Assembly: GCA_001899145.1 (NCBI GenBank)
Contig: MKVF01000021.1
Span: 310,001-374,000 of the forward strand
From: Flavobacteriia bacterium 40-80
Lineage (GTDB): Bacteria > Bacteroidota > Bacteroidia > Flavobacteriales_D > Crocinitomicaceae
Length of the DNA stretch: 64,000 nucleotides
Direction of reading: 5' to 3'
The notes beneath the pieces are model-generated. The model saw only the letters and a program-made list of their open reading frames with translations. It made no database searches and was not told where the DNA came from. The stretch's first letter is position 1; every line of letters begins with the position of its first letter. This document shows positions 21,445-32,373 of the stretch, piece by piece. Both the position numbers and the translations under genes were made by a program.

Positions 21445-21502
21445 GTTGGATAATTATGCACCGAAGTTACGGATTTCTTGTGTTTTTGAAGAATGGAAAA
21501 TT

Positions 21503-21538
21503 AAAAAAGGGAGAACACTAAAATATTCCCCCTTTTTT
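21503..21538 (-). terminator. Hairpin upstream of the importer operon
   Basis: A 13-bp stem with one mismatch (21503-21515 against 21526-21538) with an A6 arm giving a T-run on either strand. It lies 60-95 bases upstream of the importer start and after a better hairpin at 21595-21620, so it is either a backup terminator or part of the importer leader. Confidence 0.5.
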
Positions 21539-21594
21539 AATGATAGTTGTAGATTATTTTTCTTTTTGCAAAGAACCTCACTAAATAGGAATAA

Positions 21595-21640: not shown

Positions 21641-21823
21641 TTATGTCTGAAGAGATATATTTCTACTTATTTTGCCAGTAAATCCCCATTTATCATTCAA
21701 GATTAATTGGTACAAAATTCTCTGAAAATCCATGACATGATTGTATTTAAATGGAATTATTACCAGTTCAGGAGTAGCTATAAGTGCTTGTGTCCTGATA
21801 CATTTTTTCTTTAATCCCACCAT
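21641..21823 (-). pseudogene. WG-repeat fragment or small WG protein
   Basis: A 60-codon frame that begins inside the stop region of the upstream gene (13-base overlap). It reads IIPFKYNHVMDF, then eight residues later NDKWGFTGK. This is the layout of the WG (KWG) repeat, where a Y-D pair is followed 19 residues later by the W of N-G-K-W-G-F. Only one repeat is present, there is no signal peptide, and the frame stops soon after, so a remnant of a larger WG protein is more likely than a functional gene. A translated, coupled mini-protein is the alternative. Confidence 0.4.
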
Positions 21824-22308
21824 TCTCCTTTTCTGACGGTATAGCCTGCTTTTTTGAAAGCTTCTACGAGTTCATCTCCAAGATATTCATTACTTTTTTC
21901 CGCCGATAAACAGGTGAAGAACAGGTCGGAATAATAGGTTTTAATGTGTTTTTGTTTGTCTGTCCGAGTGATTTTTACAGCATTGCTTTCAGTGACAAAC
22001 AAAATATTTATGTCTTTTTCTATACTTTGTATATCATGTATGCTGACTTCTCTTTTTTCAATAAAATAGGTGCTTCCAGCTTCTTTCGGTTTGATTTTTA
22101 TTTCTAAACTCAATGTATCATTTTGGATATGGAATCCTTGGATTATTTCAAACTGATCTCCGTAATATTCTTTAGAATGCTTTTTAATAAAATCAGCTTC
22201 TTTCTCCAATTTATCATTCAGTATTTTTTCAATTTCACTGATTTGTGAAAAGGAAGATAAGTTATACGATAAGACTATAATTGTAAAAATTAATTTAATG
22301 TAGTTCAT
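21811..22308 (-). CDS. Small secreted protein of unknown function
   Basis: A 165-residue product with a signal peptide (about 1-22, ending SSFSQ) and a mature part of mixed helix and strand. It has alternating charged residues, a single cysteine near residue 133 and a K-G-E-W-W-D end. I recognise no family. It follows the MORN-barrel gene by 27 bases on the same strand and is likely cotranscribed. Base composition is more A+T rich than that of genes on either side of the block. Confidence 0.7.
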   Translation of the reverse strand: MNYIKLIFTIIVLSYNLSSFSQISEIEKILNDKLEKEADFIKKHSKEYYGDQFEIIQGFHIQNDTLSLEIKIKPKEAGSTYFIEKREVSIHDIQSIEKDINILFVTESNAVKITRTDKQKHIKTYYSDLFFTCLSAEKSNEYLGDELVEAFKKAGYTVRKGEWWD

Positions 22309-22335: not shown

Positions 22336-24216
22336 TTAAAAAAGAAAACCAAGTCTAAACCCAAACAAATTTCTTTGCCCGCTAATATTGTTTATGTATA
22401 AGTGTTGAGTATAATCATATTGATATTCGTATAAGGTAGTTGAATACCCTTGTTGCCCGCTTTTTATAATATATTGATCATCTGATGTAGATACAATTTT
22501 TGTATTGGTTTTGTCTGTGATAAATGATACTTTATAAAAAAATCCGATTACGAAAGATTTAAATCGAAACATTATTTCTGGCTGGATACTGTGTGAAAGA
22601 ATATGTCCTGAATAAATGTGATTACCAGATTCTTCTCTTGACGTTGTTGCGACCCCATTGCTATTTCTTTCATAGTAAATACCATCTGTTTGCTTTCCTT
22701 TTAGTGAAAAATCGAAAACATAATTACATTTTATAATAAAATGATCAAACAATTCCATGTTTAATCCCGCATTGGTATTAAAATTAACAGTATTTCGGCT
22801 TCTTTCTTTTTTTGAGAGATTAACTGTTGCAGGTTCGTACCATCCGTAGTAATTCGGGTTTTGTCCCCAGTTCCATGTGCCACTGCTATGATAATCGATA
22901 CTGATATCAACATCGCCGTTGTAATAATTTTGCTGATTAAAAAGTCCAGGTAGAGAGAAGCCTAAATTAAACCATTTCCAATAGTGACTATATTCTATAA
23001 CATTAAAAATATTTGTACCCTGCTCTAAGCCTGCATAGGAAGTTCCTATATAATCCTTGCTCCGCATCGTAAACACCTTATCCATGTAAAAGTACTTTTT
23101 TGTATCATTTCGTTCATCATTCTTCCAATTGCCTGTTATCTCATATCGATATGTTTTTAATACTCCGTATCCATGTTTTTTACCGTTTGAAATATCTCCA
23201 ATATATGATGTTCCGTCAGTATATTTTATTTCTGCTTTTCCCGTGTATTCATAGTTAATGTAATCACCTTCATATAATGCCCCGTTTGGGAATGTTGTTT
23301 TGATGTCTCCCGTTTTGAATACACCGGTCATATCAAATTCTCCTTTTTGGTAATTTCCATTTTTTTGAACGAATTCTCCCCTTATCAACTTACCGGTTTC
23401 ATTAAATATTCCATTATAAGTATCCTGATTTTCTGTTGTTAATTTTCCATCTCTGAACAAATTATTCTGCCATTCCCCTGTAAATCTGTCTCCGTTGTAA
23501 AATGCCATTTCTCCTTTCCCGTTTTTAACACCTTCAGACCAATGACCAGTGTAAATATCTCCATTATTGTATCTCATTGTTCCATATCCATGAGGTTTTC
23601 CATCCCTTAATTCCCCTGTGTAAACACCATCAGGCAATGTCAGCTGTATCTCTTTGAAATCAGACAGTTTAATTCCTAATTTCTCCAGATCTTTAGCTTC
23701 TTTTCCCAGTTGTGATTGCAGATCGGTTGAAGCGTTTCTTGTTAAAATAGCTTCAATTGATTTTTTGTGGGTAGTTATCGTTTCGTTTTTCTTTATATTT
23801 TCCTGAGTTTCCTTTTGGTTTATAATTTTATTCGCCTCATTAGATCGTTGTTTATCTACTTTTTCTATGACTTTCTTATCTTCTGAAGTTATAAGGGCGT
23901 CGATTCGTTTGTTGATTTCTATAATGTCTTTGTGCGCTTGTGTAGATGTATATTCAGGTGAAATAAGATCGAAGTAACGGATGAGTGCAATTTTTGTGTT
24001 TTTCACATCGCCTAAAGCATCGTGACAGAATATACGGAGTGTTTCTATTCTTGGATTTGCACCTTTTATGTTTTCTGCTTTACCTAAATAAAGCAGTGCA
24101 TCCGGATAATTCGCACTTTCGTAACTTTCAACCGCTTTCTTAAAAAAGAAGGTTGCATCCTGACCGAACGAATTGGCGGTAAGAAGCAAGAAGAGTATGG
24201 TTATAATTTGTTTCAT
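22336..24216 (-). CDS. MORN-repeat protein with C-terminal outer-membrane beta-barrel
   Basis: A 626-residue exported protein in four parts. Signal peptide 1-19. A helical TPR-like unit (about 20-110) and charged linker (about 110-165). A run of MORN units (about 195-370), the best being DGVYTGELRDGKPHGYGTM and GDIYTGHWSEGVKNGKGEM. Finally a C-terminal part (about 400-626) of alternating aromatic and polar strands ending in GFRLGFLF, the usual closing strand of an outer-membrane barrel. Bacterial MORN proteins are usually soluble or surface proteins; joining them to a barrel would place the repeats in the periplasm or on the surface. Function unknown. Confidence 0.8.
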   Translation of the reverse strand: MKQIITILFLLLTANSFGQDATFFFKKAVESYESANYPDALLYLGKAENIKGANPRIETLRIFCHDALGDVKNTKIALIRYFDLISPEYTSTQAHKDIIEINKRIDALITSEDKKVIEKVDKQRSNEANKIINQKETQENIKKNETITTHKKSIEAILTRNASTDLQSQLGKEAKDLEKLGIKLSDFKEIQLTLPDGVYTGELRDGKPHGYGTMRYNNGDIYTGHWSEGVKNGKGEMAFYNGDRFTGEWQNNLFRDGKLTTENQDTYNGIFNETGKLIRGEFVQKNGNYQKGEFDMTGVFKTGDIKTTFPNGALYEGDYINYEYTGKAEIKYTDGTSYIGDISNGKKHGYGVLKTYRYEITGNWKNDERNDTKKYFYMDKVFTMRSKDYIGTSYAGLEQGTNIFNVIEYSHYWKWFNLGFSLPGLFNQQNYYNGDVDISIDYHSSGTWNWGQNPNYYGWYEPATVNLSKKERSRNTVNFNTNAGLNMELFDHFIIKCNYVFDFSLKGKQTDGIYYERNSNGVATTSREESGNHIYSGHILSHSIQPEIMFRFKSFVIGFFYKVSFITDKTNTKIVSTSDDQYIIKSGQQGYSTTLYEYQYDYTQHLYINNISGQRNLFGFRLGFLF

Positions 24217-24272: not shown

Positions 24273-25604
24273 TCATCTGATAATTGCTCCTGTTTTTTTG
24301 TTTATTATAACAAAATTCTTGTTTAGCAGGATTTGTTCGGCATTATAAATAAAGGCAGAATGAAGCATTTTGTATCCTTTCCAGGTTATTCCATCAAGTC
24401 GATCTTTTGCAGAAGAATAACTTTCGAAAAACGGAGGGTAATGCTCCCCAAATTCCAGAAAACCGGGAACATCTCTATTATATAATTGATCTGATGTAAG
24501 AACTATAAGTTGTATACTATTCTCATCTTCGTTAATATGACTAAACGAATCATTTCCTTGAAAACTCAATACTTGTCCTTTCGATGTCATAATTTGATAG
24601 TTGTTTAATTGTTCAGTTTCTAACCTCACCAACCATTTATCGGTATTTTCAATTTTTTTAATTGATGAATAGGCTTCCTTTGGAAATTGCTTAATGATTT
24701 TATTTCCATTTTTCACGACATATAATTTTAATTCCTGCGAATACTCGATAGTGTAGTTGCTGGAGTTGTCCTCAAAGGGTAGAGACCATTCATCATCTGT
24801 GTTATACGTTTTTAGATCTTTCTTTTCATTTTCTATTTCTTCCGAAAGCGTTTTGTAGCCTTCTTTTTCGTATTTCTCGTATAAGTTGGCTATTTCCGCC
24901 CAGATTTCATAAGGATTTTCTATGCTCAATGTGTTATTATACAAGGCTGTTTCTGAATCATTGTAAGTTAGGGAAATCAATTTGCTCCATACAGATTTGA
25001 TTTCATCTTCGTTTAACGTAGCCCCTGATCCGGAACTCATACCTTGTCTCCATATTTTACTCATACTTATCCGATCTTTAAACTTATTTGGACTGCCTGG
25101 AGTTCTATATGAAATTTCTCCATTTCTCCACGCTGCAACGATATCATTATCTGAAATAAAAAAAGACAATTTATATTCATTCTGTTCATTGTCTTTGACA
25201 TTAAAATATAAAGTCATGTTCCATTTGTTCGTGGGGCCGGCTACATCGAGGCGTTTTATCAGGTCAGGATATTTTGCCAATTTAGACCTATCCAGTTCAT
25301 AAATTTTGTTTTCATGAAAAAAAGAAAACTTATCTCTTAATTCCCATTTCACACCGTTATTGTAAACCAATTGTCCCATCAGTGTCCACCAATCACTGTA
25401 TATAACCAAACTTTTGTAAGGAGAAACAATGCCTTTAAATAAAGCGACTGGTCCACTAGTTGATTTATAATCATCGGGTTCTGGTTTATTATCACCATAT
25501 ACTATCCGGAAGGAGATTTTTCCTTTTTCAGTAATTGTTATTTGGGAATAACTATCGGATATGATGATTACTAAGAAGAAAATTATTATTTGTATTTTTT
25601 TCAT
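24273..25604 (-). CDS. Secreted protein of unknown function, first gene of the block
   Basis: A 443-residue product with a signal peptide (about 1-20, ending SDSYSQ). The mature part is rich in beta-forming and aromatic residues, with a short charged helical stretch near 240-270 (EIANLYEKYEKEG). It has no cysteine-rich or enzymatic motif I can name. It is divergent from the PAS-LuxR gene, 57 bases upstream of the MORN-barrel gene, and its promoter region holds a palindrome (25695-25720). I infer that it heads a block controlled by that regulator. Confidence 0.7.
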   Translation of the reverse strand: MKKIQIIIFFLVIIISDSYSQITITEKGKISFRIVYGDNKPEPDDYKSTSGPVALFKGIVSPYKSLVIYSDWWTLMGQLVYNNGVKWELRDKFSFFHENKIYELDRSKLAKYPDLIKRLDVAGPTNKWNMTLYFNVKDNEQNEYKLSFFISDNDIVAAWRNGEISYRTPGSPNKFKDRISMSKIWRQGMSSGSGATLNEDEIKSVWSKLISLTYNDSETALYNNTLSIENPYEIWAEIANLYEKYEKEGYKTLSEEIENEKKDLKTYNTDDEWSLPFEDNSSNYTIEYSQELKLYVVKNGNKIIKQFPKEAYSSIKKIENTDKWLVRLETEQLNNYQIMTSKGQVLSFQGNDSFSHINEDENSIQLIVLTSDQLYNRDVPGFLEFGEHYPPFFESYSSAKDRLDGITWKGYKMLHSAFIYNAEQILLNKNFVIINKKTGAIIR

Positions 25605-25685
25605 TTTAAAGTTGTAACTGTTTTCTTTATTTTTGATAGTCTAATTTGATGTTCAATCAAAACCATTGGAAATAAATTATTAGAA

Positions 25686-25693
25686 CAAAATTA
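25686..25693 (-). promoter_or_regulatory. Putative -7 element of the secreted-protein block
   Basis: The minus strand reads TAATTTTG, an exact TAnnTTTG match. The palindrome at 25695-25720 fills the space where the spacer and -33 region would be, so a bound protein would cover this promoter. No TTTG is seen at the -33 position. Confidence 0.4.
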
Positions 25694-25694
25694 T

Positions 25695-25720
25695 AGTGAC
25701 TTTTCTAGAAAAAAGTCACT
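25695..25720. promoter_or_regulatory. Perfect 10-bp palindrome, likely operator
   Basis: AGTGACTTTT (25695-25704) and its exact reverse complement AAAAGTCACT (25711-25720) flank six bases. A third, near-identical half-site AGTGATTTT follows at 25727-25735. The site lies in the 197-base gap between the divergent PAS-LuxR gene and the secreted-protein block, beside promoter-like boxes for both. LuxR-type regulators bind such dyads as dimers; the pairing with this regulator is inferred. Confidence 0.5.
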
Positions 25721-25752
25721 ATTTGTAGTGATTTTCAGCCTATTTTAATGGA

Positions 25753-25782
25753 TTTGATTTTACAATTCAGATTTTATTATTG
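25753..25782 (+). promoter_or_regulatory. Promoter of the PAS-LuxR gene
   Basis: TTTG (25753-25756), an 18-nt spacer and TATTATTG (25775-25782), one mismatch from TAnnTTTG. Transcription would start near 25789, 13 bases before the GTG start codon. Confidence 0.5.
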
Positions 25783-25801
25783 TTAGATTTATAACTATAG
25801 C

Positions 25802-32301: not shown

Positions 32302-32324
32302 GAGAAATAGCATGAATCATAAAT

Positions 32325-32352
32325 AAAAAATCCGCTGCAAAGCGGATTTTTT
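32325..32352. terminator. Bidirectional terminator between the response regulator and prpE
   Basis: A 12-bp perfect stem (32325-32336 with 32341-32352) with a GCAA tetraloop and A/T arms that give U-runs on both strands. It stands between two converging genes. Confidence 0.85.
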
Positions 32353-32373
32353 ATTTATATTCCGATTCCGGAA

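Follow-up and report, generated by a model that had tools for sequence, protein, structure and literature searches.

A conserved NarL-like box between a PAS-LuxR gene and divergent genes for exported proteins: a candidate activator site in a Flavobacteriia bacterium

The window analyzed here is a stretch of 64,000 nucleotides from the 3.52-Mb genome of Flavobacteriia bacterium 40-80, a member of the family Crocinitomicaceae (Bacteroidota). Between a minus-strand gene for a 443-aa protein, whose start is at 25604, and a plus-strand regulator gene lies the intergenic region 25605-25801 (Table 1). Pfam gives two domains for the regulator, PAS_3 (residues 61-154) and GerE (PF00196, residues 198-250, E 6e-16), and no receiver domain. 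The protein belongs to the GerE DNA-binding class and to the PAS-LuxR class, in which an N-terminal PAS domain is joined to a C-terminal LuxR helix-turn-helix (HTH). It falls outside the NarL/FixJ two-component response regulators, a class that calls for a receiver, and the NCBIfam response-regulator models match its HTH part alone, far below cut-off. Its best match among solved structures is PDB 3clo (residues 84-242, E 4.6e-10), which we take to be a Bacteroides transcriptional regulator and for which we know of no DNA site or target. A third PAS-LuxR copy, 36% identical and interrupted by one TAA, is found elsewhere in the same genome (L022 1501-2238, C22:25698-26435).

On the minus strand, the 443-aa protein has no Pfam or NCBIfam match, and homologues of its gene were found in none of the 239 other genomes of the family (1/240, the window's own genome only). 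Judging by strand and spacing, the second and third genes would belong to the same operon.

Table 1. Genes and sequence features around the intergenic region (window coordinates)
Feature	Position	Strand	Remark
Regulator gene, GTG start, 258 aa	25802-26578	+	PAS_3 + GerE/LuxR
Predicted first operon gene, exported 443-aa protein	24273-25604	-	
Second gene, 626 aa, signal-like N-terminus, MORN repeats	22336-24216	-	56 nt after first
Third gene, 165 aa, signal-like N-terminus	21811-22308	-	27 nt after second
Terminator-like hairpin downstream of operon	21500-21541	-	Weak: 1 found, 1.0 expected in shuffles
-7 box TAATTTTG (TAnnTTTG) of divergent promoter	25686-25693	-	26 bp from putative operator
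Perfect inverted repeat 12-6-12, ATAGTGACTTTT-CTAGAA-AAAAGTCACTAT	25693-25722	none	All pairs match
Left arm of the repeat, extra half-site ATAGTGACTTTT	25693-25704	+	-12 to -23 of minus-strand promoter; seen only in the window; followed by 6-nt spacer
Right arm of the repeat, AAAAGTCACTAT	25711-25722		
Putative operator, GerE / NarL-like box AAAGTCACTA-TTTG-TAGTGATTTT	25712-25735	none	Conserved in homologues
Third half-site TAGTGATTTT	25726-25735		Beyond right arm of palindrome

The dyad that an earlier sequence-only reading had described between the divergent genes is exact in the sequence, with arms of 12 bp rather than 10. The further half-site, given there as AGTGATTTT (25727-25735), is also present and lies six bases after the 10-bp arm, not eight. 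The palindrome is more than a chance occurrence. The window contains nine perfect dyads with 12-bp arms and spacers of 0-12 (overlapping registers counted), several of the others having a terminator-like look, whereas 20 order-1 Markov sequences had 0.05 on average, and a score of at least 12 was reached in 9 of 2,000 simulated intergenic sequences of 197 bp. A second dyad, which had been missed, is imperfect (9/10 pairs) and joins the right arm to the third half-site: AAAGTCACTA-TTTG-TAGTGATTTT. Two other repeats were seen: an 18-nt inverted repeat (83%; 25650-25667 and 25747-25764) concentric with the palindrome, and, at 32319-32358 just after a response-regulator gene, a terminator-like repeat with perfect 18-bp arms that is stronger than any other inverted repeat in the window.

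Relatives of the regulator, at most 51% identical, were found in 9 other genomes of the 240 in the family (E <= 1e-45). When contigs of the wider genome collection were searched with the single regulator protein, no relatives were obtained; an alignment-based search of that collection gave 157, and the best 80 of the 157 loci were kept. The core TNNCTAN4TAGNNA occurred within 300 bp upstream of the PAS-LuxR gene at 16 of 81 loci, 15 of them independent since two are near-identical, compared with 8/1152 flanking stretches of equal length and 0/162 coding stretches (Fisher test of upstream regions against flanks, 1e-14). A position weight matrix (PWM) with the consensus AAAATCCCTA-N4-TAGGGATTTT scored at least 10 in 31 of 83 upstream regions, or 30 without L066, a near-copy of L083 that was dropped from the counts; the other 52 of the 83 scored below 10. 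Only 16 of 1,167 control stretches reached the same score. The window's box ranked 12th of the 83 with a matrix made without the window. Its core, TCACTAT-TT-GTAGTGA at 25716-25731, has the NarL-like 7-2-7 arrangement of inverted heptamers with two bases between them.

The perfect palindrome was not found upstream of the homologous regulator genes at the loci of the wider collection. Judged by this comparison, the conserved site is the overlapping box, made of the right arm together with the "third half-site," instead of the perfect palindrome. The sequence-only reading had made its case depend on conservation of the dyad in related genomes; the palindrome did not pass that test, and the box that overlaps it did. 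The most striking palindrome of a region thus need not be its conserved site.

We then examined the position of the box relative to the divergent promoter. The minus-strand start is predicted at about 25681, with a leader of 77 nt, placing the window's box at -31 to -54 and its center (25723.5) at -42.5. Read on the opposite strand, CAAA gives TTTG, the conserved terminal part of the -7 box TAnnTTTG. On the side away from luxR, CAAA was found 26-27 nt from the box at 20 of the 30 loci with PWM scores of at least 10 (L066 dropped), or 19/29 with the window left out, and the proportion was 18/25 at scores of at least 14 and 16/18 at scores of at least 20; the matrix had been made without regard to the promoter. 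In a hand-chosen set of 30 loci (the top PWM rows except L066, L101, and L133, plus L104 and L123, which were included once their flanks had been inspected), CAAA fell in one 4-nt span at 21/30, whereas shuffles gave at most 8/30 in 500 trials. With the Bacteroidota -7 box at -12 to -5, as placed in PMC9723704, the box center lies near -43 across loci. A fixed promoter distance and a center near -41.5 characterize class II activator sites, and the box has both, relative to the predicted start.

These data uphold the earlier suggestion of a putative operator between the LuxR-type gene and the divergent block of exported proteins, as the box is conserved beside homologous regulators at a fixed distance from the -7 element. 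The proposed overlap with the minus-strand promoter also holds, with the upstream part of that promoter being covered. Autoregulation, which had been suggested as well, may occur, but nothing speaks for it independently: in the hand-chosen 30 loci, the luxR side of the box shows no clustered element. In Pedobacter duraquae (L089/L154), unlike at the other loci, a -7 box at the fixed distance faces the regulator gene, as if serving autoactivation.

The nearest relatives of the regulator, in Pedobacter chitinilyticus (L057, 59% identity) and Flavobacterium supellecticarium (L058, 58%), have degraded boxes with 2-3 core mismatches and no CAAA at the fixed distance. The PAS domains of these two relatives are nearly the same (tree branch lengths 0.013 and 0.025), and their hosts belong to different families, which suggests that the gene was transferred recently. 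A Bacteroidota-type PAS-LuxR gene is present in a record titled as a Bifidobacterium breve metagenome-assembled genome (L081), which is probably a binning or naming error. We also looked at the recognition helix: Asn or Asp went with half-site type at 9/4 against 3/11 (p 0.02), both classes having been assigned by hand from the half-site table. That covariation vanished once kinship was corrected for on the tree, from which 3 of 82 proteins were left out as too short.

The genes across from the regulators were compared at loci with and without a box, using a simple, self-written ORF caller and signal-peptide rule. Among 29 box loci, 22 had a divergent neighbor, 4 a same-strand neighbor, and 3 none within 450 bp; the corresponding numbers for 53 loci without a box were 13, 31, and 9. 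The divergent protein was signal-like at 13/22 box loci, compared with 4/13 loci without a box and 116/419 background ORFs (13/22 against background, p 0.003), and four further proteins of the 22 were judged exported by eye. Exported divergent neighbors are in excess at box loci. The divergent proteins belong to different families. Ten of them were scanned for domains: three carried a T9SS sorting tail, one a Fib_succ_major domain, and one a lipocalin-like domain, and nothing was found in five. On the tree, the association of the box with a divergent arrangement was a tendency only (a mean of 4.2 pairs for and 0.9 against, median p 0.375). At L079 and L101, the gene across the box from the regulator also resembles PAS-LuxR, as identified by profile and by eye, respectively.

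The left arm of the palindrome gave a different picture. In the window it matches the box half at 10/10 positions, and no spacer half-site with a match of at least 9/10 was found at the 29 other loci, so that the palindrome as a whole, which had been put forward as the operator, lacks a counterpart for this arm in their spacers. By this comparison, the left arm is a feature of the window's own genome. Its distance from the distal half of the box, which has the same orientation, is 32 bp, or about three turns of the helix. A protein bound at this position of the promoter should hinder RNA polymerase, and a reasonable guess is that the left arm may be a brake on the promoter at high regulator level.

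Searches away from the regulator began with the window's own genome. The search for further AGTGACTTTT dyads that had been proposed gained nothing, the word occurring 11 times, compared with 31 for the reversed control, and TCACTANNNNTAGTGA occurred exactly once. AGTGAN{20,40}TCACT was found 37 times per strand (45 in the control), the box with up to two mismatches 82 times per strand (183 in the control), and the A/T-flanked pattern 3 times (7 in the control). Neither those three A/T-flanked sites nor three one-mismatch sites had a convincing promoter. As the word, dyad, and box patterns were all below control, these searches revealed no second target in the window's genome.

A looser compound pattern, applied to 26 genomes whose regulator has a box (L125 left out), gave 35 matches compared with 25 in the control, indicating that many of them are due to chance. 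Seventeen of these matches, counted by hand, had the strict form: nine are the regulator's own site, and eight further ones all come from four genomes. Seven of these eight were examined in their context. Two of them, in Flavobacterium soli (L147 and L162), precede lipoprotein genes by 16 and 25 nt, and the regulator is absent from the surrounding 1.5 kb. Another (L158) lies 255 nt before a gene for an exported protein, L165 precedes a lipoprotein gene facing another PAS-LuxR gene, and in Taishania (L164) there is a second full box-plus-promoter near the regulator. L153 and L155 have no fitting gene start close by.

Across the class, the strict pattern gave 16 sites in 395 genomes compared with 4 in the control, 15 of them in the 394 genomes other than the window's. 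At the 14 loci examined besides the window (L173 left out), there was no PAS-LuxR gene beside the site (0/14), and at 12/14 a suitably oriented start codon lay at a distance of 5-39 nt from CAAA. Some of these targets are presumably flavodoxin-like, FeoAB-like, and cation-transporter-like genes, going by their N-termini alone. At L170, L171, L172, and L178 to L181, the sites lie 18-39 nt before genes of these three kinds or for lipoproteins, and L170 is near a NarL-like gene. As far as these patterns tell, promoters of the box layout are more widespread than the PAS-LuxR regulator. Since several of the class-wide sites precede iron or metal genes without a PAS-LuxR gene, another protein may read such boxes.

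The closest parallel among known systems is NarL. Its 7-2-7 sites at napF and yeaR of Escherichia coli have inverted heptamers two bases apart, as in the box, and its heptamer consensus is TACYYMT. Boxes of the homologues are often of the type TACCTAT-NN-ATAGGTA, from which the window's heptamers depart, and the regulator shares the GerE output domain with NarL. The NarL sites at napF and yeaR are centered at about -42 to -45, like the box, according to PMC4549865. In contrast to NarL, the regulator contains a PAS domain but lacks a receiver, the box includes A/T flanks (AAAA/TTTT), and the promoter follows the Bacteroidota pattern TAnnTTTG. The PAS-LuxR activators of Streptomyces, PimM and its kin, resemble the window's regulator in joining a PAS domain to a LuxR-type HTH, and the promoters that they regulate carry a 16-bp palindrome in the -35 region, as described in PMC9774167. 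The PimM site given there, CTVGGGAWWTCCCBAG, has GGGA inside, whereas the conserved box is of the TCCCTA...TAGGGA type with CTA inside and the half-sites reversed; the box is thus not an operator of the PimM type. PimM and its kin also come from Actinomycetota and antibiotic clusters, in contrast to the Bacteroidota regulator studied here. In the open-access literature searched, no operator was found for a Bacteroidota PAS-LuxR protein.

What the computations show directly is the box, the fact that it recurs upstream of genes for homologous regulators, its fixed distance from the -7 element, and the excess of exported proteins among the divergent neighbors. The reading that we favor, and consider probable though far from assured, is that a PAS-LuxR dimer bound at 25712-25735 activates the exported-protein operon from a class II position. 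The cytosolic regulator, whose PAS domain would sense a signal, would bind the 24-bp NarL-like box as a dimer. Sitting beside RNA polymerase, centered 42.5 bp before the start, it would activate the minus-strand operon, which would span 25604 to about 21811. The extra half-site may allow additional protein to be bound and the promoter to be slowed. That the PAS-LuxR protein binds the box, and that it acts as an activator, is what we infer from this arrangement; activation is likelier than repression because of the fixed distance and the class II activator position.

If the regulator were instead a repressor that blocks RNA polymerase from the same box, the block being strengthened by the extra half-site, the coverage of the -33 region and the position of the extra half-site between -23 and -12 would fit, and NarL too represses from sites near the start (PMC4549865). 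A repressor would not need the near-constant -7 distance of the best boxes, however, and the extra half-site is missing from the spacers of the 29 other loci, so that we regard repression as unlikely while keeping it in view. We consider it decidedly unlikely that the box is read by some other protein, either a metal-dependent one of the DtxR type or a different GerE protein, with the PAS-LuxR gene being just a target or neighbor. The class-wide sites before FeoAB-, flavodoxin-, and cation-transporter-like genes without PAS-LuxR speak for such a reader, as do the TACCTA/TAGGTA words, which we take to resemble DtxR sites. Yet the box is strongly associated with PAS-LuxR genes, the 7-2-7 geometry fits GerE proteins, with L170 near a NarL-like gene, and the strict sites other than the regulator's own number eight in 26 regulator genomes against 15 in 394 others.

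The perfect palindrome is very unlikely to be the working operator, with its overlap with the conserved box being secondary in the window's species. Its perfection is beyond chance, and among the 30 loci its left arm ranks first as a spacer half-site, but that arm is not conserved, and the half-sites face each other across a long gap rather than in the 7-2-7 arrangement. It is more improbable still that the palindrome is not a protein site at all but an RNA or DNA hairpin, a terminator, or the end of a mobile element. A weak terminator-like stem was called on the minus strand, and the concentric outer 18-nt imperfect repeat is in keeping with a hairpin; however, there were no Rfam matches in the window and no other copies in the genome, no terminator is needed between divergent starts, and it is not the hairpin that is conserved.

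Promoters in Bacteroidota are unlike E. coli promoters, and to our knowledge few activator sites have been described for this phylum. It is possible, although we propose it only tentatively, that the window represents an undescribed Bacteroidota-wide module in which a PAS-LuxR regulator and a NarL-like box 26-27 bp from the -7 element are kept as a switch while the fast-changing divergent cargo that it turns on, a gene for a surface or secreted protein, is swapped, with the third half-site in the window making the promoter self-limiting. The box at a fixed -7 distance provides a testable rule that would tie many orphan PAS-LuxR proteins to concrete targets, which are mostly exported proteins of unknown function.
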